Part shown: positions 27,126 to 44,415 of the stretch, piece after piece | How the letters are laid out: every line of letters starts with the position of its first letter | Position numbering within the stretch: position 1 is the first letter of the stretch | NCBI GenBank assembly: GCA_028293125.1 | Contig: JAQGPJ010000052.1 | Coordinates: 124,001-188,000 of the forward strand | From: Verrucomicrobiales bacterium | GTDB taxonomy: Bacteria; Verrucomicrobiota; Verrucomicrobiia; Verrucomicrobiales; V1-33 | Direction: 5' to 3' | Length of the DNA stretch: 64,000 nucleotides | The notes under the pieces: model-generated | What the model was told of the DNA's origin: nothing | Databases searched by the model: none | What the model saw: only the letters and a program-made list of their open reading frames with translations | Made by a program: the position numbers and the translations under genes

Positions 27126-27140
27126 GCGGCCCGGGGCCGG

Positions 27141-27194
27141 AGTCGGAATCGGAATCGGAATCGGAATCGGAATCGCAGTCGGAATCGCAGTCGG
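27141..27194 (+). repeat. Hexanucleotide tandem repeat
   Basis: About nine imperfect copies of a TCGGAA/TCGCAG hexamer lie directly after the symporter stop codon. They are outside any gene, about 135 bp before ileS, in a stretch otherwise poor in signals. Such tracts can change length by slippage, but I see no promoter boxes around this one. Confidence 0.85.
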
Positions 27195-27329
27195 CAAAAG
27201 AGGGCAGGGCGTCCGGAACCCTCGTTTGCCAGGAGCGCGGGATAAAAGCGGGCTGCGCCCCCGCCTGTGATTTCCTCTTTCGCCCCGCGCAAAGGCCGGT
27301 AGGGTGCGGGTTCTTTTTCCCCCAGTCTC

Positions 27330-30149
<2,820 letters not shown>

Positions 30150-31182
30150 TTTCAGGCGACGGGCTTTTGGTGCCGCCAACCGCCAGCCGCCGGCCATGGA
30201 TCGCTTTTCGTGAGGGATCCGGTGAGGCAATTCACCGGGTCCCTGCGATAACGCGGCTGTCCCCTCCGGGTTTTCCGGAGTCCGGGCGGTTGCCCCCAGC
30301 CTTGCGGCCCGGTGGCGGGTTCCCGGTTGGCGGCGTGGCCTGCCTTTTTCAGAAGGCATGGGTCCCTTTCCGCATTGCCGGGATCCGCCCGCCGGATACC
30401 GGCTTTTCCTCTTTCCGGTTTCTGAAAAGGCTCTCGTCAGTCCATCCCCTTGAGGATGATTGTAGAATAGCGGGCTGCGGTGGCAGGGACGCAACTCCCG
30501 CAGGGACGCCGGCGTCACCCCCCGGTGACCTCCGCGCCACCCCTCCGGTGACATGGGGGTCACCCCCCCAGCGGAATTTTGGAAAAAAGTTTGCATGTCA
30601 CCGGTGACATGGGTGTCACCGGTCGGCCGGAGGCCGGCGTCAGGGGAGGATGGAACCGGACCGGATCCCCCATCGCGGCAGCGCTGTCCGGCGTCAGGCC
30701 GCCGCGCGCCGTTCCAGATCCGCTTTCCGGCGGTGGACGGAAAGGCGTGCCGCCGCAGCTGGAAAAACCATGCCATGATAGCAAAAAATTACTTACGCTG
30801 AACACCGGTGGTTCAGCGATTCCAAATAACGCACGGAAAGTCGCTCAAGGCAAGGCATTTCAAGGGAAATGAAGCCTTTTATTACGGTGAAAATAGTCCG
30901 TGTGGGAACCTCCGGAAGGTTGGGGAATCTGAGTTTAAAAAATGCTATTATGGATACCATTCACCATGCGGATCCGAGTTGTCAGGGGCCGGCTCCGGCC
31001 CGCCGATGCACCGGCCTCCTCAGCCCTGAAAAGGCGCATTCGGGCAGCCCGGGGCAGCGCCCCAGTTTTTCCGTGTCAAATTGGGCAGACACCCTCAGGC
31101 CACGGGGCGAGGCCCGCAATTTTAATAAATTCCGGGCATTGACTTCCTGACAGCTATCATCAATGTTAAATTTTAATTTTCC
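30150..31182. other. Intergenic region between ileS and cas3
   Basis: About 1 kb without a convincing gene. Short frames are present, and a very long frame on the opposite strand is only a shadow of GC-rich ileS and its neighbours. The region holds a cluster of GGTGAC/GTCACC dyads (30,514-30,620). An AT-richer stretch before cas3 contains TTGACT at 31,139, a weak candidate -35 box. I see no tRNA and no CRISPR repeat here. Confidence 0.5.
30514..30620. promoter_or_regulatory. Cluster of seven GGTGAC half-sites in dyads
   Basis: Seven copies of GGTGAC or its complement GTCACC lie within 107 bp. Two are arranged as GGTGAC-N6-GTCACC with near-identical centres ATGGGG and ATGGGT (30,547-30,564 and 30,603-30,620). 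One is GTCACC-N4-GGTGAC (30,514-30,529), and one is a direct back-to-back GTCACCGGTGAC (30,597-30,608). This could be a multi-site operator or a set of RNA hairpins. No gene starts within 500 bp on either strand other than cas3. Confidence 0.4.
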
Positions 31183-33861
31183 ATGACTCCAGTCCTCACA
31201 TCCTCCAACATTAATCTTGTTGATTGCTGGGCGAAAACCTGGACGGACGGGCCTCTGAATGGAAGGCCCGGTCTTACAGTTTATGACCATTGTTTAAATG
31301 TGGGGGCCGTGGCTGTCGAATTACTTGGGAAACTGCCCAGGCCAGTCCGTGAAACGCTTCCTCCAGGAGCGCATTTGCTTGTTGCAGTGCACGACATCGG
31401 AAAAATCACGCCCGGTTTTTTGCGGAAATGCGAATTCTGGAAATGCCACGAACCCCGCTCCGCCACTCAGGGCGAAACAGATCACGCCAGAGTCAGTCAG
31501 TGGTTTCTGGCAGGATTACCGGAAATGAGGGACCCGCGCGGGCGGCCCACGGACTGGCTGCTGGCGGCGGGCGGACATCATGGGCGTTATCCTTCCTCCA
31601 AAGCGGATCTTCCCGGCATCCGGGAGTTTGCACAATCAGATTGGCCTCTGACTCTGCGTCGGGAGTTGCTGGCTGAATTGATTGAACTTTTCGGATCTCC
31701 GCCTGCGGAGCTTGTTTTCCTCCGCCATGGGGACATTCGAACTTCAGCCCGGGTGCATCTTCTGACGGGTTTCACCACTTTCTGCGACTGGTTGGGCTCG
31801 GATGAGAAAACGTTTCCCCTCAGTGCGGAGTTTCCTCCCGCCTGTCCCGCCACCCTTCCGGCAAGCAGGAAAGCAGCCGCTGGTTCGCTTGCCGCGATCG
31901 GTTCGCACCAGCGGGAGGTTACTGCCGGCATGGGTTTTGCCGAACTGTTTGCGGATGACAGTGGCACTGTATTCAGCCCGCGGCCGCTGCAGAGCACGCT
32001 CATGGCAGCGATGGACGCGCCCGGTCTTTATATTGTGGAGGCGCCCATGGGCATGGGAAAAACGGAGGCCGCTTTGGCCGCGGCCTATGCCAGATGGACC
32101 ACGGCGGATGCGGAACGCGGTCTTTATTTCGCATTGCCCACGCAGCTTACCAGCCAGCGCATTCATCAGCGCGTCGCGGCGTTTCTCAAAAATATTATTT
32201 CTGATAAAGCGACGCTGACCCTGGTGCATGGAAATGCGTGGTTGAGCGCTGACCGGGTGCTTCAGCTATCGCCCACCAATGATTCCCATGAGGACCAGGG
32301 CGCGGCTGATGCCCACGGGTGGTTCGCCTCCACCACGCGGAGGGCGCTGCTGGCTCCTTTCGGCACGGGCACGATTGATCAGGCTCTGCTTTCCGTTCTT
32401 CCGGCCAAACACGCCGCGCTGCGTTTTTTCGCCCTCGCCGGAAAAGTAATTGTTTTGGATGAGGTTCATTCCTACGATCCCTACACCTCCGCGTTGGTGG
32501 ACCGCGCTATCCAATGGCTGCTTCATGCGGGATGCAGCGTGCTCGTTCTTTCCGCCACCCTGACAGCCGCCCGGCGGGCTGCTCTGGTAGCAGCCGCCGG
32601 AGCGGTGGAAAATGGATTTTCCAAGGATTATCCACTGATCACCAAAGTCAGCAGCGGCAGCCAGGAGGCGGTCCATATTCCCGTCGATGGAGAAGTCCCG
32701 CGGCGGCTGACAGTGAGCCTGAAGCATCTGCCAGCCGGAGACCCTGACATCCAGGAGCGGGCGGTGGAGGCGGCCGCGCGCGGAGCCTGCGTGCTGATTA
32801 TCCGGAACACCGTCGCCCTTGCGCAGGAAACCTATCGCCTTATCAAATCGGCGCGGTGCGGCGACGCCTTTCAGGTGGGTCTGCTCCACAGCCGCTTTCC
32901 CCAGTGGCAGCGGGATGAGCAGGAAAAGAAATGGACGACGCTTCTGGGAAACCATCAGGAAGGACGTCCGCGCGGCTGTGTTCTTGTCGCCACCCAAGTG
33001 GTGGAGCAGTCCGTGGATATTGATTCCGATCTGCTCATCACGGATCTCGCGCCGACGGATCTGCTGCTGCAGCGCATAGGCCGCCTGCATCGTCATGACC
33101 GGTCGCGCCCGGACGGATTTGCGGAGCCGCGATGTCTCATTCTTTATCCGCGGGTGGATTGGTCGGCCGATGCGAAAGTTATCCGAAGGGAACTTTCGCC
33201 GCATGGCTATGTCTATCCGCCCTATGCGCTTTACCGGGCTCAGGCTCTTTGGCGGGAACGGGAGACTGTTTCATTGCCCGGAGATATCCGACCGCTGTTG
33301 GAGGCCACCTATGCCGATGCCGCGGATTTGCCCGTCGGAGTGTCGGGGCTGCATCGGGAACTGGCTTCCAAAGTCGAAAAAATGGTGGGCACCGCCGCGT
33401 CTCGGGGAGTCTTCACCGCAGTGGCCACAGCGGACCGGGAAGGAGCTGAAACCCGCTGGATTGAGCAGGACACCGCTCTGGTGGTGCTGTTGCCCGCAGC
33501 TCCGGTGGAAAGTGGTTCGTCGCGCATCACGGTCACACTGCACGGGGGATCCACGCTGCATGCGGATACCTCGCGCTTCCACATGGACCTGGCCCAGGCG
33601 CTGCACCTCCATGCCGTCCGGGTGCCCCGTTATCTTATCGCTCCGGCTTTGGCGCGGCAAAAGCCCTGGTTCAAATTTCATATCAACGACGCCGTCCTCG
33701 CCGTCTGCCCTCCCGAAACATCAAGTTGCCTCATCCCGGAAGCTTCGGACAATATGGCTTTCCTCCAATACCATCCGGACACCGGGCTTACCTACACAAA
33801 ACCGGAAAAATCATCCGCCTCCGCGGATCTTTCCGCCTTTGAGGAGGACGGATGGTTTTGA
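31183..33861 (+). CDS. cas3: CRISPR-associated helicase-nuclease Cas3
   Basis: 892 residues. Cas3 is recruited by DNA-bound Cascade and nicks, unwinds and degrades the target. The N-terminal HD nuclease has His36, the His70-Asp71 pair in VAVHDIGK, and AAGGHHGRYP further on. The helicase part has Walker A APMGMGKTEAA near residue 290, DEVH near 426, SATLTAA, and QRIGRLHRHDR (motif VI). The C-terminal domain ends in FEEDGWF. It is the first gene of the locus and is separated from cas8e by a 326-bp regulatory region, as in E. coli. All key catalytic residues appear intact. Confidence 0.95.
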   Translation: MTPVLTSSNINLVDCWAKTWTDGPLNGRPGLTVYDHCLNVGAVAVELLGKLPRPVRETLPPGAHLLVAVHDIGKITPGFLRKCEFWKCHEPRSATQGETDHARVSQWFLAGLPEMRDPRGRPTDWLLAAGGHHGRYPSSKADLPGIREFAQSDWPLTLRRELLAELIELFGSPPAELVFLRHGDIRTSARVHLLTGFTTFCDWLGSDEKTFPLSAEFPPACPATLPASRKAAAGSLAAIGSHQREVTAGMGFAELFADDSGTVFSPRPLQSTLMAAMDAPGLYIVEAPMGMGKTEAALAAAYARWTTADAERGLYFALPTQLTSQRIHQRVAAFLKNIISDKATLTLVHGNAWLSADRVLQLSPTNDSHEDQGAADAHGWFASTTRRALLAPFGTGTIDQALLSVLPAKHAALRFFALAGKVIVLDEVHSYDPYTSALVDRAIQWLLHAGCSVLVLSATLTAARRAALVAAAGAVENGFSKDYPLITKVSSGSQEAVHIPVDGEVPRRLTVSLKHLPAGDPDIQERAVEAAARGACVLIIRNTVALAQETYRLIKSARCGDAFQVGLLHSRFPQWQRDEQEKKWTTLLGNHQEGRPRGCVLVATQVVEQSVDIDSDLLITDLAPTDLLLQRIGRLHRHDRSRPDGFAEPRCLILYPRVDWSADAKVIRRELSPHGYVYPPYALYRAQALWRERETVSLPGDIRPLLEATYADAADLPVGVSGLHRELASKVEKMVGTAASRGVFTAVATADREGAETRWIEQDTALVVLLPAAPVESGSSRITVTLHGGSTLHADTSRFHMDLAQALHLHAVRVPRYLIAPALARQKPWFKFHINDAVLAVCPPETSSCLIPEASDNMAFLQYHPDTGLTYTKPEKSSASADLSAFEEDGWF

Positions 33862-33950
33862 ACCCGCCCCACGAAGGTGGGGAACCGTTGCTCCACAATG
33901 GTTTGTCTTCGCGCTGCGCGGGTCATCCCCATCATACGAGTGGGGAACTC
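33859..33950 (-). CRISPR. Degenerate mini-CRISPR (CreR-like) between cas3 and cas8e
   Basis: Read on the minus strand, two imperfect type I-E repeats flank a 31-nt spacer-like segment. The first repeat (33,950 to 33,919) starts GAGTTCCCC and ends GGGGATGACCCG. The second (33,887 to about 33,859) starts CGGTTCCCC, has the stem CCCCAC-CTTC-GTGGGG, and then decays. The main-array repeat begins GTTTTCCCC and ends GGGGATGGACCG, so stem and handle positions correspond; the 8-nt handle would be ATGACCCG against ATGGACCG. The segment between is 33,888-33,918. Orientation is opposite to the main array. This is the architecture of Cas-regulating RNA genes known from other type I systems. Transcription is not shown, and I see no clear promoter. 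Confidence 0.65.
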
Positions 33951-34002: not shown

Positions 34003-34022
34003 TTTGTTTTCGCTCTGCGCTT
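34003..34022 (-). promoter_or_regulatory. Cascade self-target site in front of cas8e, with AAG PAM
   Basis: On the minus strand the site reads AAG (34,022-34,020), then CGCAGAGCGAAAACAAA. The mini-CRISPR spacer begins CGCAGCGCGAAGACAAA. They agree at positions 1-5, 7-11 and 13-17 and differ at 6 and 12, and the match stops at 18. In type I-E complexes every sixth crRNA base is flipped out and does not pair, so the differences fall exactly where they cost nothing. AAG is the canonical E. coli type I-E PAM. A full Cascade footprint would cover about 33,988-34,022, just upstream of the likely cas8e promoter. Confidence 0.7.
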
Positions 34023-34030
34023 CTTTTTTG

Positions 34031-34058
34031 TTGCACACTTTATTTTGTAAGTTTAAGA
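34031..34058 (+). promoter_or_regulatory. Candidate promoter of the cas8e operon
   Basis: TTGCAC (34,031-34,036) and TTTAAG (34,053-34,058) are separated by 16 bp. Each matches four or five of the six consensus bases. The pair begins 9 bp after the PAM of the self-target site, so bound Cascade would crowd the -35 box. Other weak boxes exist in this AT-rich stretch, so the exact start is uncertain. Confidence 0.35.
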
Positions 34059-34187
34059 GGGGATGAACCCGAAAGCTGTTCTCCCCCCGGACTCGAATGG
34101 CCCGGCAGTTTAAAGGCAAAACATGCAGACCTCCCATTCGGAATGATGGGAGCTCAACTTCCGCCGGGGCTGCTAAAATTACAAAAT

Positions 34188-35717
34188 GTGAAAAAAGTGA
34201 TCGCTTTCAATCTTGCTGACGATCCATGGGTTCCTGTCCGCTGGCTGGACGGATCATCAGACTTGTTATCTTTGAACGATCTCTTCGCGCGGTCGGCGGC
34301 TATCGCCGGACTTGATGCCGCGCCGCATGAGCGGGTTTCCCTGATGCGCCTGCTGGTCTGCCTCGCCCAGGCCGCACTTGGCGCGCCGAACGAATGTTAT
34401 GGCTGGCCCGGTTTTGGCGCGGACATGTCCACGAAGGTGCCCGCCTATCTGGCACGCGCCGACATTCATCCGCATTTTGAATTGTTTGGTCCCGGCCCGC
34501 GGTTTCTTCAGGTGGAAGTGCCGGCCCGTGAGGAGCCGGTGCCCGCCAGCAAGCTCATGCCCCATTTGGCCACTGGCAATAATCCCACGCTTTTTGATCA
34601 TGCGGGAGGCACGGACCGCTCATTTTCACCTTCCAAACTGGCGCTGGCTTTACTGACTTTCCAAAATTTTTACCCTCTCTATGGCGCGGGTCACAAGGGT
34701 AAGGGTCCCTGTGCGGACAGCAATATGGCCCATACCCTTCTCCATGGTGGAAACCTTTCGGAAACCATCCTGCTCAATGCATTGGATGCGGATACCATAG
34801 CTGAGTTTTATAAGGTGGCCGGCATGGGCCGTCCCCTGTGGGAGACCGGTGCCGCCACGGTGGCGGCGCAACAAAGCGCCACCAGGTCCTATCTTGGGCG
34901 CCTTGTGCCCCGGCACCGGAACCTCTGGCTCCATGACGACGGCAAAGCTTTCAATCTTTCTAATGAGAGTCTTCAGTATCCCAATTTCGAGGAGGCCCGG
35001 GAACCCTCCGCCACCGTCAAGGTTACTCTTAAAACCACGGGGGAGGAAAGAAGACTGCTCCCGCTCCGGCAGGGTCGCGGATTGTGGCGGGATCTGGACA
35101 GCATCGCCGTATTGCGGACCTCCCGGCAGCAAACCCAGCAGGCTCCGCTGACACTTCAATCGCACATCCACGCGTTTGAAAAAAAAGAGGGGCATTTATG
35201 GGTGGGTGGATTGGTGACCGATCTGAAGGCCAAGATCCTCGACACGGCCGAATCCAGCTTCACCGTGCCGTATGCCCTTTTCAAGGAGGAGGGCCGGGCA
35301 ATGTATGAGAATGGAGTGGCCGCCGCACAGACGCAGTCCCAGCAGCTTTATGGAGCGGTGAAAAATTACGCCGCCGGCATGAAGCACGAGTCAGCTCCGC
35401 ACGAGGCGGCATCCCGCCACTACTGGAATACCCTCGATCAGGAATCATCATTGCTCCTGAGCCTGATCGGTGACCCCGGCCTTCTTGACGGCAAACAGAT
35501 CGAAGCCGCTGACAGTATTTGGGGCCGGATTGTCCGCCATGCCGCGCGGGCCGCGTATGACGCCATCTGCCAGCGGCTGACCCCGCGTCAGCACAAAGCT
35601 TACATCGAGGGTCTGAGGGTCCTTTTTCCCAAACCAAAAAGCGCCACCGCCAAAAAAAAGCCCACCATGAAACTGGCAAAAGCCGTTCCGCCTGAACCTG
35701 AATTTTCCCATGAGTGA
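34188..35717 (+). CDS. cas8e: Cascade large subunit Cas8e (Cse1/CasA)
   Basis: About 509 residues. Cas8e recognises the PAM, stabilises the R-loop and recruits Cas3. The N-terminus FNLADDPWVPVRWLDGS matches the Cse1 opening (L-x-x-D-x-W-(I/V)-P-V-R). The middle has ACPL-like HERVSLMRLLVCLAQAALG, GPRFLQVE and the Thr/Gly-rich ATGNNPTLFDH, and the C-terminal helical bundle is present. The start is uncertain: the frame is open to 33,987, but homologous sequence begins at 34,188 (GTG) or 34,197 (GTG). ATG 34,143 is another option. None has a Shine-Dalgarno sequence. The gene overlaps cse2 by 8 bp. Confidence 0.88.
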   Translation: MKKVIAFNLADDPWVPVRWLDGSSDLLSLNDLFARSAAIAGLDAAPHERVSLMRLLVCLAQAALGAPNECYGWPGFGADMSTKVPAYLARADIHPHFELFGPGPRFLQVEVPAREEPVPASKLMPHLATGNNPTLFDHAGGTDRSFSPSKLALALLTFQNFYPLYGAGHKGKGPCADSNMAHTLLHGGNLSETILLNALDADTIAEFYKVAGMGRPLWETGAATVAAQQSATRSYLGRLVPRHRNLWLHDDGKAFNLSNESLQYPNFEEAREPSATVKVTLKTTGEERRLLPLRQGRGLWRDLDSIAVLRTSRQQTQQAPLTLQSHIHAFEKKEGHLWVGGLVTDLKAKILDTAESSFTVPYALFKEEGRAMYENGVAAAQTQSQQLYGAVKNYAAGMKHESAPHEAASRHYWNTLDQESSLLLSLIGDPGLLDGKQIEAADSIWGRIVRHAARAAYDAICQRLTPRQHKAYIEGLRVLFPKPKSATAKKKPTMKLAKAVPPEPEFSHE

Positions 35718-36279
35718 AATCCCAGCACGCTTCCCAACCGCTCAGGGAGCGGAGAACCGTAAATTCCTGGATGCCTTGATTGGTGTCTGCGGCGACCGTG
35801 GCCAGCGGGCCGCGCTCCGCCGTTATTGGAGCGATGCCACCAGGCACGATGCCTATCCCGTTCTTGGCAGGCTCCGGGCCATAGGGAATGAGCCCCGTGC
35901 GCTGGTGGCGGCTCTGTTTGCTGAGCATCCTTATCACAGTGACTCCGCCCGCAGTTTCGGTCAGACCTGTTTGCGCCTCGCCGGAGGCGAAATTGAAAAC
36001 TACGAAAGCCATTTCCGGCGCCTGCTGGCCTGTGACAGCCTGGACGATCTTGCCGCGCCGGTTCATCGGGCAATCCGCCGGGCCTCGCGCGAAGGGGCCG
36101 GGTTGCCGGTGAATTACCTGCGCCTGCTCAAGGATCTTTGGGCTTGGAAAGACTATCCAGCCCACCAGGCATATTATCAGGAGCACGGATGGGACGATGT
36201 GAAAACCAGGTGGGCCCAGGATTTTTGGCAGGCTCCGGCGGAGGCAATAAACACCGACCCTGTCTCTGAACCCCTATGA
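35710..36279 (+). CDS. cse2: Cascade small subunit Cse2 (CasB/Cas11e)
   Basis: 189 residues, the normal size. Two copies of Cse2 form the inner belly of Cascade and hold the displaced DNA strand. The mostly helical sequence has basic residues at the expected places (RAALRRYWSDATRHDAYPVL), and the family's second helical block is near LPVNYLRLLKDLWAW. It overlaps cas8e by 8 bp at the start and cas6e by 4 bp (ATGA) at the end, so all three are translationally coupled. Confidence 0.88.
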   Translation: MSEIPARFPTAQGAENRKFLDALIGVCGDRGQRAALRRYWSDATRHDAYPVLGRLRAIGNEPRALVAALFAEHPYHSDSARSFGQTCLRLAGGEIENYESHFRRLLACDSLDDLAAPVHRAIRRASREGAGLPVNYLRLLKDLWAWKDYPAHQAYYQEHGWDDVKTRWAQDFWQAPAEAINTDPVSEPL

Positions 36280-36947
36280 TTCCGCTGTTACTGACTCAGG
36301 CCCTGGTGCCCTATGATATTGCAGCCCGCTGGGATTGCGGCCGCGGATTTGCGGACAGCTATGCCTGGCACCAGCGCGTCTGGGATACCTTTCCGGGCCG
36401 TGGGGACGCTCCGCGTGATTTCCTGACAAGGCTGGATGACAGGGCGGACGGATTCCGTCTCCTCATCCTTTCGGCACACCCGCCCGTGAGGCCTGACTGG
36501 TGCCCCGAGCCCAATTGGCAAACCAAGACGATACCTGAATCTTTTCTCAGCCATCCCCGTTACGAATTTTCCCTGGTGGCGAATCCCGCGCGGAAAGTGC
36601 GGAGCAACACCAAAGGTGAGCTTCTTAACAACAGCCGCCGCGTGGCCATTGTCCACCGGGAGGACCAGGAAGTGGACGGAAAGCCGCAGGCGGGATTGCT
36701 TTCATGGCTCATTCGCCAGGGGGGACAGCACGGCTTCAGTCTTCCGCAGCCCGGCAGGGTGAGCACCATCCCGCGTCCCCGCCGCTATTTTCTGAAAAAA
36801 AACCAGCCCGGCCTCCACGCCGCCACGGAATTCCAGGGCCTTCTGCAGGTGACTGATCCCACCGCCTTCCGCCACGCCTTCACGGGCGGCATTGGCTCCG
36901 CCCGCGCCTTTGGTTTTGGAATGCTGTGCCTTGCTCCCTCAAAGTGA
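36276..36947 (+). CDS. cas6e: crRNA-processing endoribonuclease Cas6e (Cse3/CasE)
   Basis: 223 residues. Cas6e cuts the repeat hairpin 8 nt before the spacer and stays bound as part of Cascade. The C-terminal glycine-rich loop GIGSARAFGFGMLCLAP is diagnostic for Cas6. The N-terminal ferredoxin-like fold has a candidate catalytic His in SYAWHQRVWDTF near residue 30. In the usual type I-E order cas6e follows cas5e; here it comes straight after cse2 and before cas7e. Its last 9 bases overlap the toxin gene on the opposite strand. Confidence 0.9.
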   Translation: MIPLLLTQALVPYDIAARWDCGRGFADSYAWHQRVWDTFPGRGDAPRDFLTRLDDRADGFRLLILSAHPPVRPDWCPEPNWQTKTIPESFLSHPRYEFSLVANPARKVRSNTKGELLNNSRRVAIVHREDQEVDGKPQAGLLSWLIRQGGQHGFSLPQPGRVSTIPRPRRYFLKKNQPGLHAATEFQGLLQVTDPTAFRHAFTGGIGSARAFGFGMLCLAPSK

Positions 36948-37199
36948 TTGGATCAGCCTTTCATACTCATCATGAGCGCCTATCCAGACCCACAGCAGCC
37001 CTTCAGGTCTTTCCTTCGCCAGCGCCCGGTAACCACCGGAAATTCTGACCGACCAGCCCTTGCCCTTCCGTTCAAAATGCAGGGACGGATGCGAGGGGTT
37101 CTCCTTCAGCAGAGCAAACGCCTTGTCGGCATTTTGCCTCACAGGCCCGGTGAGCGCGCCATAAAACTTCCAGTATTGAGGCGTTGTGAAATGCCTCAT
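36939..37199 (-). CDS. RelE/ParE/HigB-like toxin inside the cas operon
   Basis: 86 residues from the ATG that overlaps the antitoxin stop (ATGA at 37,196-37,199); a longer start at 37,211 is possible. The C-terminal part has WSVRISGGYRALAKE followed by LLWVWIGAHDEYERLI. This is the standard RelE-fold ending with a basic strand, an Arg and the His-x-x-Y segment. RelE-like toxins are usually ribosome-dependent mRNA interferases. It lies antisense between cas6e and cas7e, overlaps the last codons of cas6e, and follows its antitoxin as in a normal type II operon. Confidence 0.8.
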   Translation of the reverse strand: MRHFTTPQYWKFYGALTGPVRQNADKAFALLKENPSHPSLHFERKGKGWSVRISGGYRALAKERPEGLLWVWIGAHDEYERLIQSL

Positions 37200-37408
37200 A
37201 ATTCCCGGCAACGTCCCGCTTCAAATTCCGCATCAGCTTCAGCAAACAGTTTGTCCAGCTTTCCGGCCGTCACATCCGCCTCAATCTGGCGGTCCCAGTC
37301 GTCGTCGAAATCCCGCAGCCAGGAGGTCAGCTCCGAGCGCTCGGCCACCGTCAGCCGGGTGGCGCAGGCCTGTTTTATTTCCTCCACGGCACTCATGCCC
37401 CGCAACAT
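37196..37408 (-). CDS. Antitoxin of the RelE-like pair
   Basis: 70 residues, strongly acidic in the second half (DFDDDWDRQIEADV, FAEADAEFEAG). The N-terminal half SAVEEIKQACATRLTVAERS and SELTSWLRDFDDDWD resembles small addiction-module antitoxins of the type with a T-x-x-E-R-x-x-L-x-x-W-L helix. I see no obvious ribbon-helix-helix or HTH domain, so DNA binding is uncertain. The gene is head-to-head with cas7e, only 59 bp apart, so the two may share a control region. Confidence 0.7.
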   Translation of the reverse strand: MLRGMSAVEEIKQACATRLTVAERSELTSWLRDFDDDWDRQIEADVTAGKLDKLFAEADAEFEAGRCREL

Positions 37409-37467
37409 AGCGATCCCGCTGTGAATTCAACCGGACTTTCCCTTTCCGCCCACGATCCAAACGATCC
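37409..37467. promoter_or_regulatory. Divergent control region of the antitoxin and cas7e genes
   Basis: 59 bp lie between the antitoxin start (minus) and the cas7e start (plus). The segment contains the 9-mer CCGCCCACG (37,446-37,454), identical to the core of the CRISPR repeat, and two copies of ACGATCCA before the cas7e ATG. TGAATTCA (near 37,423) is a small palindrome. I see no clear -10/-35 pair, but cas7e to cas2 need either read-through from cas6e or a promoter here. Confidence 0.35.
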
Positions 37468-38505
37468 ATGAAACTCATCGAACTCCACATCCTCCAGTCC
37501 TTTCCCGTCTCCTGCCTTAACCGCGATGATGTGGGATCACCCAAAACAGCCCTTTTCGGCGGGGTGAACCGCGCCCGTCTTTCCAGTCAGTGTCTAAAGC
37601 GCGCGGCGCGGGTCCACGCCAGGGAGCACGGGGAGCCGGAACGCTTTCAGGGCATCCGCAGCCGCTTCCTGCTGGAGGCGTTCTCCACGGCGCTGACCGG
37701 ACATGGACTCACTCCTGACCAAGTGGCCGAAAAAGCCAAATCCATCGCTGAAACTCTCAGCAAACTGGAGGTCAAAAAGAAGGAGACCGACAGCGACGTG
37801 ACCACCGCCGTCTTCCTTTCTCCAAGTGAAATTGAACAGATCGCGGCCGCGGTCGCCGGAGGCGATGATCCCAAAAAAGCCGCCAAAAAGGCCACCCGGC
37901 TGGATGCCGCCGACATTGCCCTGTTCGGCCGGATGATCGCCAATGATCCGACTTTGAATGTCGAGGGGGCCGCTCTGTTCTCCCATGCGCTCTCCACACA
38001 TCAGACAGCGAACGAGGTGGATTTTTTCTCCGCCGTGGATGACCGGAAAACCGATGCTGCGGATGCCGGTGCCGGCATGATCGGCACCCTGGAGTTCAGT
38101 TCCGCCACTTATTACCGCTACTGTGCGGTGAATCTGAGCCTTCTGGAGAAAGAGTCTCACCTTGGCCTCCTGGCCAAGGAGGAGCGCAGGCAAGTGGTGG
38201 AGGCTTTTCTCCGGGCCATCCTGCTGGCTGTGCCGGGGGCGCGCCAAAATTCCATGAATGCCGCCACCCTGCCGCACACCGCGCTGGGCGTGGTGAAGGA
38301 AAAAGGCCAACCCCTGCAGCTCATCAATGCCTTTGAAAAACCGGTCAGCGCCAAACAGGGCGGCCTTGCTGACGCCTCCGCTGAACGAATGAAGGCGCAT
38401 TATGGGGAATTGAATGAGACATGGGGACTCACTCCCACAGCGGAAGTCTGGCTGCCGGAAACCAACGTGGACGGCTTCCTTAAAACCCTCCTGAGCCATG
38501 TCTGA
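37468..38505 (+). CDS. cas7e: Cascade backbone subunit Cas7e (Cse4/CasC)
   Basis: 345 residues. Six copies of Cas7e coat the crRNA and form the backbone that also flips out every sixth base. The start IELHILQSFPVSCLNRDDVG and SPKTALFGGVNRARLSSQCLKRA are nearly invariant family blocks. GTLEFSSATYYRYCAVNL and PGARQNSMNAATLPH are further signatures, the latter in the thumb region. It overlaps cas5e by 8 bp. It is the first gene after the inserted toxin-antitoxin pair. Confidence 0.95.
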   Translation: MKLIELHILQSFPVSCLNRDDVGSPKTALFGGVNRARLSSQCLKRAARVHAREHGEPERFQGIRSRFLLEAFSTALTGHGLTPDQVAEKAKSIAETLSKLEVKKKETDSDVTTAVFLSPSEIEQIAAAVAGGDDPKKAAKKATRLDAADIALFGRMIANDPTLNVEGAALFSHALSTHQTANEVDFFSAVDDRKTDAADAGAGMIGTLEFSSATYYRYCAVNLSLLEKESHLGLLAKEERRQVVEAFLRAILLAVPGARQNSMNAATLPHTALGVVKEKGQPLQLINAFEKPVSAKQGGLADASAERMKAHYGELNETWGLTPTAEVWLPETNVDGFLKTLLSHV

Positions 38506-39247
38506 TTCCGCCGCCCTGGCCTTTGTGCTGGATGGCCCGCTGCAATCATGGGGCGTCGATTCCCGATACCAGCAGCGGGACACGTCCGCCTTCCCCACCA
38601 AAAGCGCCATTATCGGCCTGCTTGCCGCCGCACTCGGCATCGACAAACACGCGTCCGATGAGGCGGACCGCCTCGCTCCCTATGCGGCCTTGAATCTCAC
38701 CGTGGTCCGCGCCGCCCTTGATCAGGCCCGTCCGGGCGGCAGACTGAGCGATTTTCACACCATCGGCGGCGGTTATGATGTCGGTGTTCCGTGGCAAAGG
38801 CAAAGCACGCCGGAGAAAGCCGGAGGCGGTGCGTTCGGCACGGTCATCACCCGCCGCATCTATCTCACCGGCTCCGCATTCATCGCCATCCTTGAGGGTC
38901 AGGGCACCGTGCTTGAAACCGCCGCCGCCGCTCTCCTCGATCCCGTGTGGGGGGGCTGGCTGGGAAGAAAAGCCTGCATCCCGGCCCGTCCCTTTGCGCC
39001 AACCATTGGACCCTCCGCCCAGCAGGCTTTTGACAGCCTCAGGCTCAGGCTGAGTCTTCCCGCCGCACGGCTGGAATTGTTTGACCGTCAGACGCAGCCC
39101 TGCAAAGGGGACACATCGGCCGATTTATTTCACCAGCCGGATCAGCCGCAAAGTTTCGGCGGACGGTCCCACCTGTCCAGACCAGTCCGTTATGTCCGGG
39201 GAGCCAAGCCAGGAGTGGCTGCCGCCAACATGTTTGATGCCATTTAG
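38498..39247 (+). CDS. cas5e: Cascade subunit Cas5e (CasD)
   Basis: 249 residues. Cas5e grips the 5' handle of the crRNA. The start FVLDGPLQSWGVDSRYQQRDT followed by FPTKSAIIGLLAAALG is the canonical Cas5 N-terminus, and the segment FHTIGGGYDVG and the later SRPVRYVRG fit Cas5e. It overlaps cas7e by 8 bp and is followed by cas1 after 20 bp. Confidence 0.93.
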   Translation: MSDSAALAFVLDGPLQSWGVDSRYQQRDTSAFPTKSAIIGLLAAALGIDKHASDEADRLAPYAALNLTVVRAALDQARPGGRLSDFHTIGGGYDVGVPWQRQSTPEKAGGGAFGTVITRRIYLTGSAFIAILEGQGTVLETAAAALLDPVWGGWLGRKACIPARPFAPTIGPSAQQAFDSLRLRLSLPAARLELFDRQTQPCKGDTSADLFHQPDQPQSFGGRSHLSRPVRYVRGAKPGVAAANMFDAI

Positions 39248-39267
39248 CTCCGCCGCCGCCGCCAGCC

Positions 39268-40101
39268 ATGCCCATTTTCGAAAAACCACCCTTGGAAACC
39301 CTGTCCATGGCGCGGGACCGTTGGACACCGCTCTATTTGGAGCACGGCCGTCTGGAGGTGGATGATTCCTCCGTAAAGTGGATCAGTTCCCAGAAACTGG
39401 TCTGCAGGATACCTGTGGCCACCGTCAGCGCCCTCATTCTGGGCCCCGGAACCACCCTGACCCACGCCGCCATGAAGGCCTGCGCGGATTCCAATACTCC
39501 CGTGATCTGGATGGGGGAGGAGGGGATGCGTTTTTACGCTGCCGGTCTTCAGCCAAACCATGACAACTCCATGGCCCGGCTTCACGCCACCGCCTGGGGC
39601 GACAAACGGAGGCGTGAGGCCATCGCGAGGGCCATGTTCCTCTTCCGCTTTGAAAATGTCGAGGTTGACTCCGCCACTGTCCAGCAGCTTCGGGGCATGG
39701 AGGGAAAACGGGTCAAAGTTGAATACGCCAAGCTGGGTATTCAGTACGGGGTCACTTGGAAGGGCCGCGACTACAACGCCCAGAACTGGGACCTTGCCGA
39801 CGGCATCAACAAAGCCCTGTCCGCCGCCAACGCCAGCCTTTATGCCCTCTGCGCCGCGGTTTGCCACACCATGGGCTTCATTCCACAACTGGGATTTGTG
39901 CATGATGCCGGCACTCTGCCTTTCATTTATGACATCGCTGACCTTTACAAACACGAGACCTCATGGCCCGCCGCCTTTCAGGCCATTTCGCAGAAACCGC
40001 AGGACGATGGAACCCTCGCCCGCAAATTTCTAAAGGAGAAAGTGGAGGAAACCAAACTTCTTCAGCGCATTCCCCGCGATCTGACCAAACTTTTTGCCTG
40101 A
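39268..40101 (+). CDS. cas1: Spacer integrase Cas1 (type I-E)
   Basis: 277 residues. Cas1 with Cas2 captures protospacers and inserts them at the leader end. The metal-binding residues are present: Glu145 in RGMEGKRVK, His212 in GFVHDAGTLPF, and Asp222/Asp225 in YDIADLYK. The N-terminal beta domain starts DRWTPLYLEHGRLEVDD, as in E. coli Cas1. All the catalytic residues suggest an active integrase, in line with the long and regular array nearby. Confidence 0.96.
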   Translation: MPIFEKPPLETLSMARDRWTPLYLEHGRLEVDDSSVKWISSQKLVCRIPVATVSALILGPGTTLTHAAMKACADSNTPVIWMGEEGMRFYAAGLQPNHDNSMARLHATAWGDKRRREAIARAMFLFRFENVEVDSATVQQLRGMEGKRVKVEYAKLGIQYGVTWKGRDYNAQNWDLADGINKALSAANASLYALCAAVCHTMGFIPQLGFVHDAGTLPFIYDIADLYKHETSWPAAFQAISQKPQDDGTLARKFLKEKVEETKLLQRIPRDLTKLFA

Positions 40102-40151
40102 ACTCCGCCCTCCGCAAAACTGGATTCCGAACAGTTGAAACTGAATTGCCC

Positions 40152-40487
40152 ATGACCTGTCTCCTAGCCAACGACACGCCCCCCGCCATCCGGGGGCTGC
40201 TCAAACGGTGGTTCATAGAGCCCCGCCCCAACATTTTTGTGGGCACTCTGAATCCCAGGACCCACCGTAAAGTCATGGATTACGTTCTTCGAAACGCTCC
40301 GGCGGATTTCGGCCTGCTGATTGTCACCAGTGCCCTGAACTGCCAAGGCTACACGCTGGAACGGATCGGCCCCTGCGGCTGCACCGGCCGCGACCCTGTT
40401 GAAATCTCCGGTATTCCTCTCGTTGCGGAATCCTGGGAGGACATCCCGGAAGTTTTGGAGGTGGACCCCGAAAACGCTCCTTTCTGA
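40152..40487 (+). CDS. cas2: Cas2 (type I-E)
   Basis: 111 residues. TPPAIRGLLKRWFIEPRPNI and FVGTLNPRTHRKVMDYVLRN match Cas2e, which has the P-x-x-(L/I)-R-G start and G-x-(L/V) strand. The C-terminal tail after SGIPLVAESW is longer than that of E. coli Cas2. The ATG at 40,152 is chosen because the frame upstream runs within the end of cas1. It lies 50 bp after cas1 and 56 bp before the first repeat. Confidence 0.92.
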   Translation: MTCLLANDTPPAIRGLLKRWFIEPRPNIFVGTLNPRTHRKVMDYVLRNAPADFGLLIVTSALNCQGYTLERIGPCGCTGRDPVEISGIPLVAESWEDIPEVLEVDPENAPF

Positions 40488-40543: not shown

Positions 40544-43500
40544 GTTTTCCCCGCCCACGCGGGGATGGACCGGAGGACGTGCGCACCGTGCTGGGAGAGC
40601 TCCGGTTTTCCCCGCCCACGCGGGGATGGACCGCTGGAGCCCGCCGCCCAATCCGCTTTCCCCACGTTTTCCCCGCCCACGCGGGGATGGACCGGAAACC
40701 ATGCGGCTTTGAGTTTCTCAGGAGGGGTTTTCCCCGCCCACGCGGGGATGGACCGCCTCCCTTGCGCCCGGCCTGCCCCTCCCGGCGGTTTTCCCCGCCC
40801 ACGCGGGGATGGACCGGTGAAAGTCAACCTCACGCTCACCCTGCACCTGTTTTCCCCGCCCACGCGGGGATGGACCGCCCGCCGTCCCATCCAACAGCCT
40901 CCGGGGATTGTTTTCCCCGCCCACGCAGGGATGGACCGCCCATGTGGAGTGGCTGAAAGCGGTGGTGACCGTTTTCCCCGCCCACGCGGGGATGGACCGT
41001 GCGCTCCGGCATTGAAACCCATCTGTCCGCCGTTTTCCCCGCCCACGCGGGGATGGACCGCCCGTGGAGCAGCCGCAGGAGGCCGGCCCCACGTTTTCCC
41101 CGCCCACGCGGGGATGGACCGAGCATCCCCCGCGCTCACCGCATGAACGAACTGTTTTCCCCGCCCACGCGGGGATGGACCGCACACCAATCTGATGGCG
41201 CTGTGTGCGCGGTGGTTTTCCCCGCCCACGCGGGGATGGACCGTATTCGCATAAACTTGTCAGGAGTCGATTCATGTTTTCCCCGCCCACGCGGGGATGG
41301 ACCGTTATGCAGCTGCCTGTCAGCTACCGCATTGTAGTTTTCCCCGCCCACGCGGGGATGGACCGCGGAATTCAGACGCTGGGCGAACAGGTGACCGGTT
41401 TTCCCCGCCCACGCGGGGATGGACCGTTCACCTTGCCGGGTGATTGGGGAAACGATACGTTTTCCCCGCCCACGCGGGGATGGACCGGCCGGGACCTGTC
41501 AGCGGCCGCCCGCGGGTGCGTTTTCCCCGCCCACGCGGGGATGGACCGTCTGCTGACATATCTCAACACCGCCCTCAACAGTTTTCCCCGCCCACGCGGG
41601 GATGGACCGCAGCCTACGGCACTCAACTCCGCTACACCGATGTTTTCCCCGCCCACGCGGGGATGGACCGGCCGGCGGCTATGCCTACGTCCCCAATGCG
41701 CCGTTTTCCCCGCCCACGCGGGGATGGACCGGCCCACGCGCAGGATGGGCGGAGCCGGAGAGGGTTTTCCCCGCCCACGCGGGGATGGACCGGCATGTTT
41801 TTTGATGCCGATGGCGGCTTCCACGTTTTCCCCGCCCACGCGGGGATGGACCGCCGCCCGCATTCTCGAAATCCTGCTGCGCTCCGTTTTCCCCGCCCAC
41901 GCGGGGATGGACCGGTCCTCGGAATCTTGGACAAAGCCGACGCCAAGTTTTCCCCGCCCACGCGGGGATGGACCATTATATCGCCAGCATCGTCAGCACG
42001 CTGCCGCGTTTTCCCCGCCCACGCGGGGATGGACCGGCGATGTCTTTTACTTGGTAGTCGGGGCAAATGTTTTCCCCGCCCACGCGGGGATGGACCGCGT
42101 GATGGTGGTTTCCATCTCCGCCGACAGTTGTTTTCCCCGCCCACGCGGGGATGGACCGCCAAATCCCACGCGCGGGAGGTTTACGACCGTGTTTTCCCCG
42201 CCCACGCGGGGATGGACCGGCCGGCACGGCGGATCCGGCGGCGCTGAAGGTGTTTTCCCCGCCCACGCGGGGATGGACCTTACGCATGCCGGAGGCAGAG
42301 GCGGGGCGGGTTGTTTTCCCCGCCCACGCGGGGATGGACCGGCGCTGGACACGCTCCGCCGGCAGTGGACGGAGTTTTCCCCGCCCACGCGGGGATGGAC
42401 CGTTCCTGCATTTCATCTATCCGCGTGAGGATGCGTTTTCCCCGCCCACGCGGGGATGGACCGCCTCCCCGCACTTCGGCCCAAAGCTCCAGTATGTTTT
42501 CCCCGCCCACGCGGGGATGGACCGGTGGTCCACGATGAAAACCTGGACGAGGCACTGTTTTCCCCGCCCACGCGGGGATGGACCGCCGCCGTCCATGTCC
42601 GTGATGACCCCGCTGTCGTTTTCCCCGCCCACGCGGGGATGGACCGCAGCTGCTGCACCATCACAAGCGGGGCGTCGAGTTTTCCCCGCCCACGCGGGGA
42701 TGGACCGTTTTGCTGTTCCGGTCGCTCCGCATGAGTCCGGTTTTCCCCGCCCACGCGGGGATGGACCGATTGGCACGGGCGAGGGGAACCAGGTTTACGG
42801 GTTTTCCCCGCCCACGCGGGGATGGACCGCCTTCCGGCGCTTCATTCTGGAACCATTGGAGGTTTTCCCCGCCCACGCGGGGATGGACCGGCCGGATTCT
42901 GTGGCACGCCCACCTGTGCGGCGTTTTCCCCGCCCACGCGGGGATGGACCGATTGTTCGGCATGGGCCTGCGCGCCGGCTGGTGTTTTCCCCGCCCACGC
43001 GGGGATGGACCGCAGATGACCGCCCGTGAGGTCACGGAGCGCAGGTTTTCCCCGCCCACGCGGGGATGGACCTTGCTGATGCCCATGGCGTTCATCTTCT
43101 CGCGGGTTTTCCCCGCCCACGCGGGGATGGACCGTGGCGGGCTGGGTGTTTTTCAGGGACCACTCCGTTTTCCCCGCCCACGCGGGGATGGACCGGATTT
43201 AACCGTGAACGAACCCCGCACGGGTCCGTTTTCCCCGCCCACGCGGGGATGGACCGCATTTGCAACGCCAATGGGCAGCCCAGATAGCGTTTTCCCCGCC
43301 CACGCGGGGATGGACCGCGCCGGCTGGATCACATCGCCAACCTGCACGAGTTTTCCCCGCCCACGCGGGGATGGACCGCATTTCCAGTTCATAGGACACC
43401 ACCTCAGCGGGTTTTCCCCGCCCACGCGGGGATGGACCGACAAAACCGGGGGTCAGGGCGGCGTTTGCGGTATTTTCCCCGCCCACGCGGGGATGGACCG

Positions 43501-44415
43501 CAAACCACCCTCCTGCAGACCATCGCCGGTTCGTTTTCCCCGCCCACGCGGGGATGGACCGGCTCCCGTCCTGCGTGGAAATGTAGTATCTGAGTTTTCC
43601 CCGCCCACGCGGGGATGGACCGCTCGCCCGCTCAGGGAGCACGGCCGGAGATTTGTTTTCCCCGCCCACGCGGGGATGGACCGCCCTGCTGAAAACAGAG
43701 CCGGGGGGGACGTCTGTTTTCCCCGCCCACGCGGGGATGGACCGGCGCGGTTTATGCGCGGGGAAACCTCCGCTGGGTTTTCCCCGCCCACGCGGGGATG
43801 GACCGGGCGGCTTCCGCTTCCTTGACTTTAGCCAGTGGTTTTCCCCGCCCACGCGGGGATGGACCGGGGTTCGTCGGGGACGGCGGCGGGCGGGCTGCGT
43901 TTTCCCCGCCCACGCGGGGATGGACCGGAGATTGCCGAGGGCAGCCTCAAACTTCAGGCGTTTTCCCCGCCCACGCGGGGATGGACCGGCGGCGCGGCGC
44001 TCCTTCGCTTTGGCGTCGCGGTTTTCCCCGCCCACGCGGGGATGGACCGCCCGCCAAACCCAGCCAATCCCGGTCATGCCCGTTTTCCCCGCCCACGCGG
44101 GGATGGACCGTTGGGGTCCACGTTGTCATACCGCAGCGTGTAGTTTTCCCCGCCCACGCGGGGATGGACCGCTTCCGGCCATAGAGGAGGTGCAGCCATG
44201 ACCGTTTTCCCCGCCCACGCGGGGATGGACCGCGCCCTATGTCATCAACTGGCCCGTCCGCCTGGTTTTCCCCGCCCACGCGGGGATGGACCGCGGGTCC
44301 CTGTGGAGTTTGAGGGAGCCCGCGAGTTTTCCCCGCCCACGCGGGGATGGACCGCCATGGACGAGGATGTCGATTTCAGCTGGCTCGTTTTCCCCGCCCA
44401 CGCGGGGATGGACCT
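40544..44415 (+). CRISPR. Type I-E CRISPR array, 64 repeats and 63 spacers
   Basis: The repeat is 29 bp: GTTTTCCCCGCCCACG, then CGGGGATGGACCG. It contains the stem CCCCGC-CCAC-GCGGGG, and the 8-nt handle is ATGGACCG. Spacers are 32 bp and the period is 61 bp at every point tested from first to last repeat. Repeat orientation and the cas2-side leader put the newest spacers at the left. Variants: repeat 7 has A at position 18 (40,927), and repeat 49 starts with A (43,472). The last base is A in repeat 24 and T in repeats 29, 42 and 64. Otherwise the repeats are identical, so the array looks active. All apparent reading frames inside it come from the repeat period. Confidence 0.99.

Follow-up and report, generated by a model that had tools for sequence, protein, structure and literature searches.

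What does a single, degraded mini-CRISPR do between the cas3 and cas8e genes in a complete type I-E locus? The window, that is, the whole stretch of 64,000 nucleotides analysed here, comes from a Verrucomicrobiales bacterium and holds a full type I-E set (cas3, cas8e, cse2, cas6e, cas7e, cas5e, cas1e and cas2e) together with type I-E repeats. Its 326-nt cas3-cas8e gap contains, on the minus strand, a unit made of a repeat (R1), a spacer and a second repeat (R2). Such an arrangement brings to mind the CreRs (cas-regulating RNAs), reportedly first described by Liu et al. in 2023. The genes and the array are laid out as follows.

31183-33861, plus strand: cas3, upstream of, not within, the presumed repressed operon
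34188-35717, plus strand: cas8e (cse1/casA), with which the presumably repressed operon begins
35710-36279, plus strand: cse2, type I-E operon
36276-36947, plus strand: cas6e, type I-E operon
37468-38505, plus strand: cas7e, type I-E operon
38498-39247, plus strand: cas5e, type I-E operon
39268-40101, plus strand: cas1e, type I-E operon
39963-40487, plus strand: cas2e (open reading frame), last gene of the type I-E operon, whose remainder after cas8e spans 35710-40487
40544-44415, plus strand: main CRISPR array, 64 repeats of GTTTTCCCCGCCCACGCGGGGATGGACCG with 32-nt spacers

Some neighbouring elements may be recorded here. Antisense to the operon, in the interval between cas6e and cas7e, lie two small overlapping ORFs (36939-37396, minus strand; approximately 37396-37196 and 37199-36939), the latter with a Pfam ParE_like match just under the cut-off (E = 1.1e-4); from these features they are a possible toxin-antitoxin pair. 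When the frame opposite them was used in tblastn, matches were found in the type I-E loci L053, L055, L057 and L107, the one in L053 being located between cas6e and cas7e. Two further small ORFs without a Pfam match (30146-30607 and 30869-31150) immediately precede cas3 on its 5' side, and a 12-nt tandem repeat, CGGAATCGGAAT, occupies 27138-27200.

The mini-CRISPR unit (33859-33950, minus strand) is composed of three elements.

33950-33919, minus strand: R1, GAGTTCCCCACTCGTATGATGGGGATGACCCG, a degenerate CRISPR repeat with a 5-bp CCCCA/TGGGG stem
33918-33887, minus strand: spacer (guide), CGCAGCGCGAAGACAAACCATTGTGGAGCAAC, 32 nt, identical in length to the main-array spacers
33886-33859, minus strand: R2, GGTTCCCCACCTTCGTGGGGCGGGTTCA, a degenerate repeat that retains its hairpin and overlaps the cas3 stop codon

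R1 exceeds the array repeat by 3 nt and has an enlarged loop, and its 5' handle (ATGACCCG) is nearly intact, being identical to the array handle (ATGGACCG) at 6 of 8 positions. The handle of R2 is gone (3 of 8), a combination of loss and retention that is expected if the guide ends up with the R1 handle only. The window thereby displays a mini-CRISPR with diverged repeats at a cas locus, which is one of the features of a CreR.

The guide finds its counterpart within the same gap.

34003-34019, minus strand: target protospacer, CGCAGAGCGAAAACAAA, paired at guide positions 1-5, 7-11 and 13-17 and mismatched at 6 and 12
34020-34022, minus strand: PAM AAG, directly before the protospacer, as in all seven loci compared below

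On the sequence, this confirms the initial annotation, which had described the match over 1-5, 7-11 and 13-17, the AAG before the site and the mismatches at 6, 12 and 18; most later positions are also mismatched. Once positions 6, 12, 18 and so on are ignored, the usable positions match consecutively, 15 out of 15. Apart from the spacer itself, no other such match exists among approximately 127,900 window positions, where the runner-up reaches 10. Against the same gap, 5000 shuffled spacers gave a maximum of 11 usable matches and the 64 array spacers a maximum of 8, or of 6 if the PAM was required. An earlier chance estimate, 2 in 10^8 for each pair of positions, is crude as a figure, but the conclusion drawn from it is safe in view of the window scan and the shuffles. 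Throughout the 6.48-Mb genome, AAG followed by CGCAGNGCGAANAC with at most one mismatch occurs twice, at the target site and at C75:5656; the latter occurrence sits inside mechanical ORFs rather than at an obvious promoter.

Relatives provide a test of whether this match has been maintained. Cas8e searches yielded 101 distinct type I-E loci, the majority of them verrucomicrobial; in most of the 101, cas3 abuts or overlaps cas8e. The gap measures at least 124 nt in seven loci (the window and six others of the Verrucomicrobiota, L047, L050, L052, L061, L087 and L089), and each of the seven has a minus-strand mini-CRISPR in it, with seven different and mutually unrelated spacers. The R1 handle is retained at 5-8 of 8 positions and the R2 handle at 0-4 of 8, and the R1 hairpin is present in all seven despite divergent sequence. 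Each spacer was defined by the handle alone and then compared with the gap, no PAM being imposed, and the best match was preceded by AAG in every locus. Matches in the own gap, out of 15 usable positions, numbered 15 (window), 13 (L047), 13 (L050), 14 (L052), 13 (L061), 14 (L087) and 10 (L089), compared with 7-11 per spacer in the gaps of the other loci. When AAG was required, own pairing covered 92 of 105 usable positions, against 83 at most for any other assignment. With or without that requirement, the pairing of each spacer with its own gap was the best of all permutations (1/5040), in a test that assumes exchangeable loci, while these loci have a common ancestry, though their spacers are dissimilar. 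The L089 guide pairs over positions 1-11 only, and its score of 10 falls within the cross-locus control range when no PAM is imposed; with AAG required, the controls reach only 8. That guide and target are kept together in evolution, a criterion added in this analysis, was thus found in seven loci. The initial annotation had predicted that seed and target should change together in relatives, and they do: each of the seven spacers has its own matching target, AAG is constant, and positions 6 and 12 vary.

A strict scan of the 101 loci recovered the same seven, the remaining AAG matches occurring at the mock-PAM rate. CreR-like units were sought anywhere in these loci, including upstream of cas3 within contig reach, and none stood out beyond the seven; there was no convincing case among the 101 where cas3 abuts cas8e, and the 76-nt gap of L107 yielded no mini-CRISPR guide. 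AAG-flanked gap guides were seen only in loci where a separate promoter for cas8e is likely, suggesting that guide and promoter go together. Viral contigs searched for Cas8e relatives gave none, and the Cas8e search found no genome of the same genus or family with this type I-E system. L047 carries a second array, with the repeat GTGTTCCCCACCTGCGTGGGGATGGACCG, which ends approximately 80 nt before cas3.

The position of the target points in the same direction. In the window it is situated between the two divergently oriented units, 53 nt upstream of R1 and 8 nt upstream of the -35 region of the following element.

34031-34059, plus strand: likely cas8e promoter, TTGCAC (34031-34036), 17 nt, TAAGAG (34054-34059); weak boxes, placed with the help of relatives

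With boxes placed by eye, a TTG-type -35-like hexamer directed towards cas8e is located 7-12 nt from the PAM end in all seven loci, always with the target on the same strand, and a short A/T-rich stretch separates PAM and hexamer in each. The hexamers are TTGCAC in the window, TTGACC in L047 and L087, TTGCAG in L050, TTGAAC in L061 and TTGACA in L089, that of L052, TCGACA, being the least clear. A sigma-70 consensus scan gave no promoter at threshold at the cas8e boxes of the window, which match the consensus poorly; the element is a likely cas8e promoter on the grounds of its position and its relatives. With the promoter so placed, the guide shows partial complementarity, next to a PAM, to a likely cas promoter region, a second feature of CreRs.

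The distribution of mismatches indicates which machinery reads the match. Over the seven loci, positions 1-5 have no mismatch, position 6 has five, positions 7-11 have three in total and position 12 has six, and mismatches are frequent from position 17. Positions 6 and 12 were mismatched in 11 of 14 cases, compared with 3 of 70 at the other seed positions (Fisher P = 6e-9). These two are the guide positions left unpaired in Cascade, and the concentration of mismatches there implies that pairing follows Cascade geometry. Seven loci with guide and target in step, and with positions 6 and 12 drifting, constitute an evolutionary read-out of that geometry. Mutagenesis of CreA has shown that changes at 6 or 12 are harmless while changes at any of the other ten positions are not (PMC8501985). 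In the E. coli type I-E system, a protospacer that is mismatched across positions 19-32 still binds Cascade robustly, yet provokes neither interference nor primed adaptation (PMC5904413). The earlier suggestion that pairing which stops at about 17 permits binding without cleavage is consistent, by analogy, with these data. Cascade binding alone is not proof of repression, since off-target binding in E. coli leaves the expression of nearby genes unaltered (PMC5904413).

What the sequence shows is the mini-CRISPR anatomy, the PAM, the pairing geometry, the promoter-adjacent position and the covariation of guide and target in seven loci. We put at about 0.88 the probability that the mini-CRISPR is a CreR-type guide for autorepression of the cas8e-cas2 operon by Cascade. 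The initial annotation had read the locus as crRNA-guided autorepression of this operon, and the seven-locus covariation supports this as the best reading. Transcription, processing, binding, repression and relief are predicted steps. The minus-strand mini-CRISPR would be transcribed and cut by Cas6e at R1 and R2, giving a single crRNA-like guide that would be loaded into the Cascade of the same locus. This complex would read AAG and pair at positions 1-5, 7-11 and 13-17, 8 nt from the cas8e -35 region, where bound Cascade would probably obstruct RNA polymerase, the pairing being presumably too short for recruitment of Cas3. As Cascade accumulates, the operon cas8e-cse2-cas6e-cas7e-cas5e-cas1e-cas2e would be shut down, and relief would come when plentiful array crRNAs compete with the guide or when anti-CRISPRs disarm it.

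Other explanations have to be weighed against this one. The unit might be a relic, a degraded single-spacer array whose match arose by chance or by old self-acquisition and has no regulatory effect, as the degenerate repeats, the end of the match at position 17 and the weak promoter could suggest. Such a relic would not be expected to show spacers and targets in step over seven loci, a constant AAG and mismatches mainly at unpaired positions, nor would it retain the R1 handle and hairpin, and we regard it as extremely unlikely. Hardly any weight can be given either to the proposal that the guide serves chiefly to repress its own divergent promoter, as negative feedback on guide level, with cas8e only weakly affected: the target does lie between the divergent units, not far upstream of R1, but in 7 of 7 loci its PAM end faces the -35-like hexamer on the cas8e side.

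A CreTA-like addiction module deserves slightly more consideration, though it too is very unlikely. The leader at approximately 34066-34187, with its hairpin, would then be a toxic small RNA, and loss of Cascade would poison the cell. Strong hairpins occur in the leaders of the window, L050 and L052, the L050 leader has an ARAGORN tRNA call and that of L052 a cloverleaf fold, and the guide rules equal those of CreA. An SD-like AAGAGG in the window also precedes a 16-codon mini-ORF, though the ATG of the latter (34063) is no further downstream than the expected transcription start. Against this, the distance from PAM to cas8e is only 40 nt in L047 and 75 nt in L087, so that a toxin gene would have little space or none; by eye there is no mini-ORF with tandem rare codons, the leaders share no sequence, and that of the window folds no better than shuffles (z -1.0).

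The leaders merit a description of their own. Between the guided promoter and cas8e, L050 (14924-15000, minus strand) and L052 (14925-14994, minus strand) have tRNA-like elements, with a strong hairpin ahead of each. The L050 call is for tRNA-Gln, with 0 of 300 shuffles called, and nothing similar was found elsewhere in the L050 genome; the L052 cloverleaf is reported by ARAGORN at a lowered threshold only, as are 5% of shuffles. We do not extend the tRNA-like element to the window, as ARAGORN reported none even at lowered thresholds and the Rfam tRNA model scored 13.5 bits (E = 7.1), below its gathering score. It is unlikely that some of the seven loci have a guided promoter that produces a structured leader RNA of tRNA-like form as well (clear in L050, a cloverleaf in L052 and, in the window, weak at best), with the guide then controlling a tRNA-mimicking RNA, acting as sensor, processing signal or toxin, along with the cas operon. 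Such an element would not fit into L047, and it therefore stands outside the core mechanism of autorepression. In the 776-nt gap of L061, the first reading frame between the guided promoter and cas8e is a 63-aa ORF without a Pfam match, which could be a CreTA/CrePA-like target.

Autorepression by a CreR-type guide also fits the systems already known. As in CreA of haloarchaeal CreTA, two degenerate repeats flank a spacer analogue, a PAM is present, and positions 1-5 and 7-11 pair while 6 and 12 are free (PMC8501985, PMC9458426). CreA represses an RNA toxin, whereas the window is without an evident toxin gene and the promoter faces cas8e. The AAG PAM and the unpaired PAM-distal end resemble E. 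coli type I-E Cascade at sites with PAM-distal mismatches; those sites are engineered or off-target, and no effect on the expression of neighbouring genes was measured for them (PMC5904413). The initial annotation presented the mechanism as new, but it is the published autorepression by CreRs, which, in the passages devoted to them in PMC13131331, PMC12948488 and PMC12737573, are mini-CRISPR RNAs of types I-B, I-E and V-A that act by partial complementarity to cas promoters and respond to crRNA supply and anti-CRISPRs. The literature searches, which covered CreRs through papers citing them, turned up no earlier report for this phylum. Compared through these citing descriptions, the locus shares with CreRs the mini-CRISPR at a cas locus, the limited complementarity to a cas promoter, the predicted use of its own effector and a type I-E host system, and differs in host group and in the individual guide and target. 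Taken together, it is, as far as sequence can tell, a further member of the known CreR class, agreeing with it in each respect open to a sequence test, and it offers a clean and testable natural instance of CRISPR as a gene regulator.
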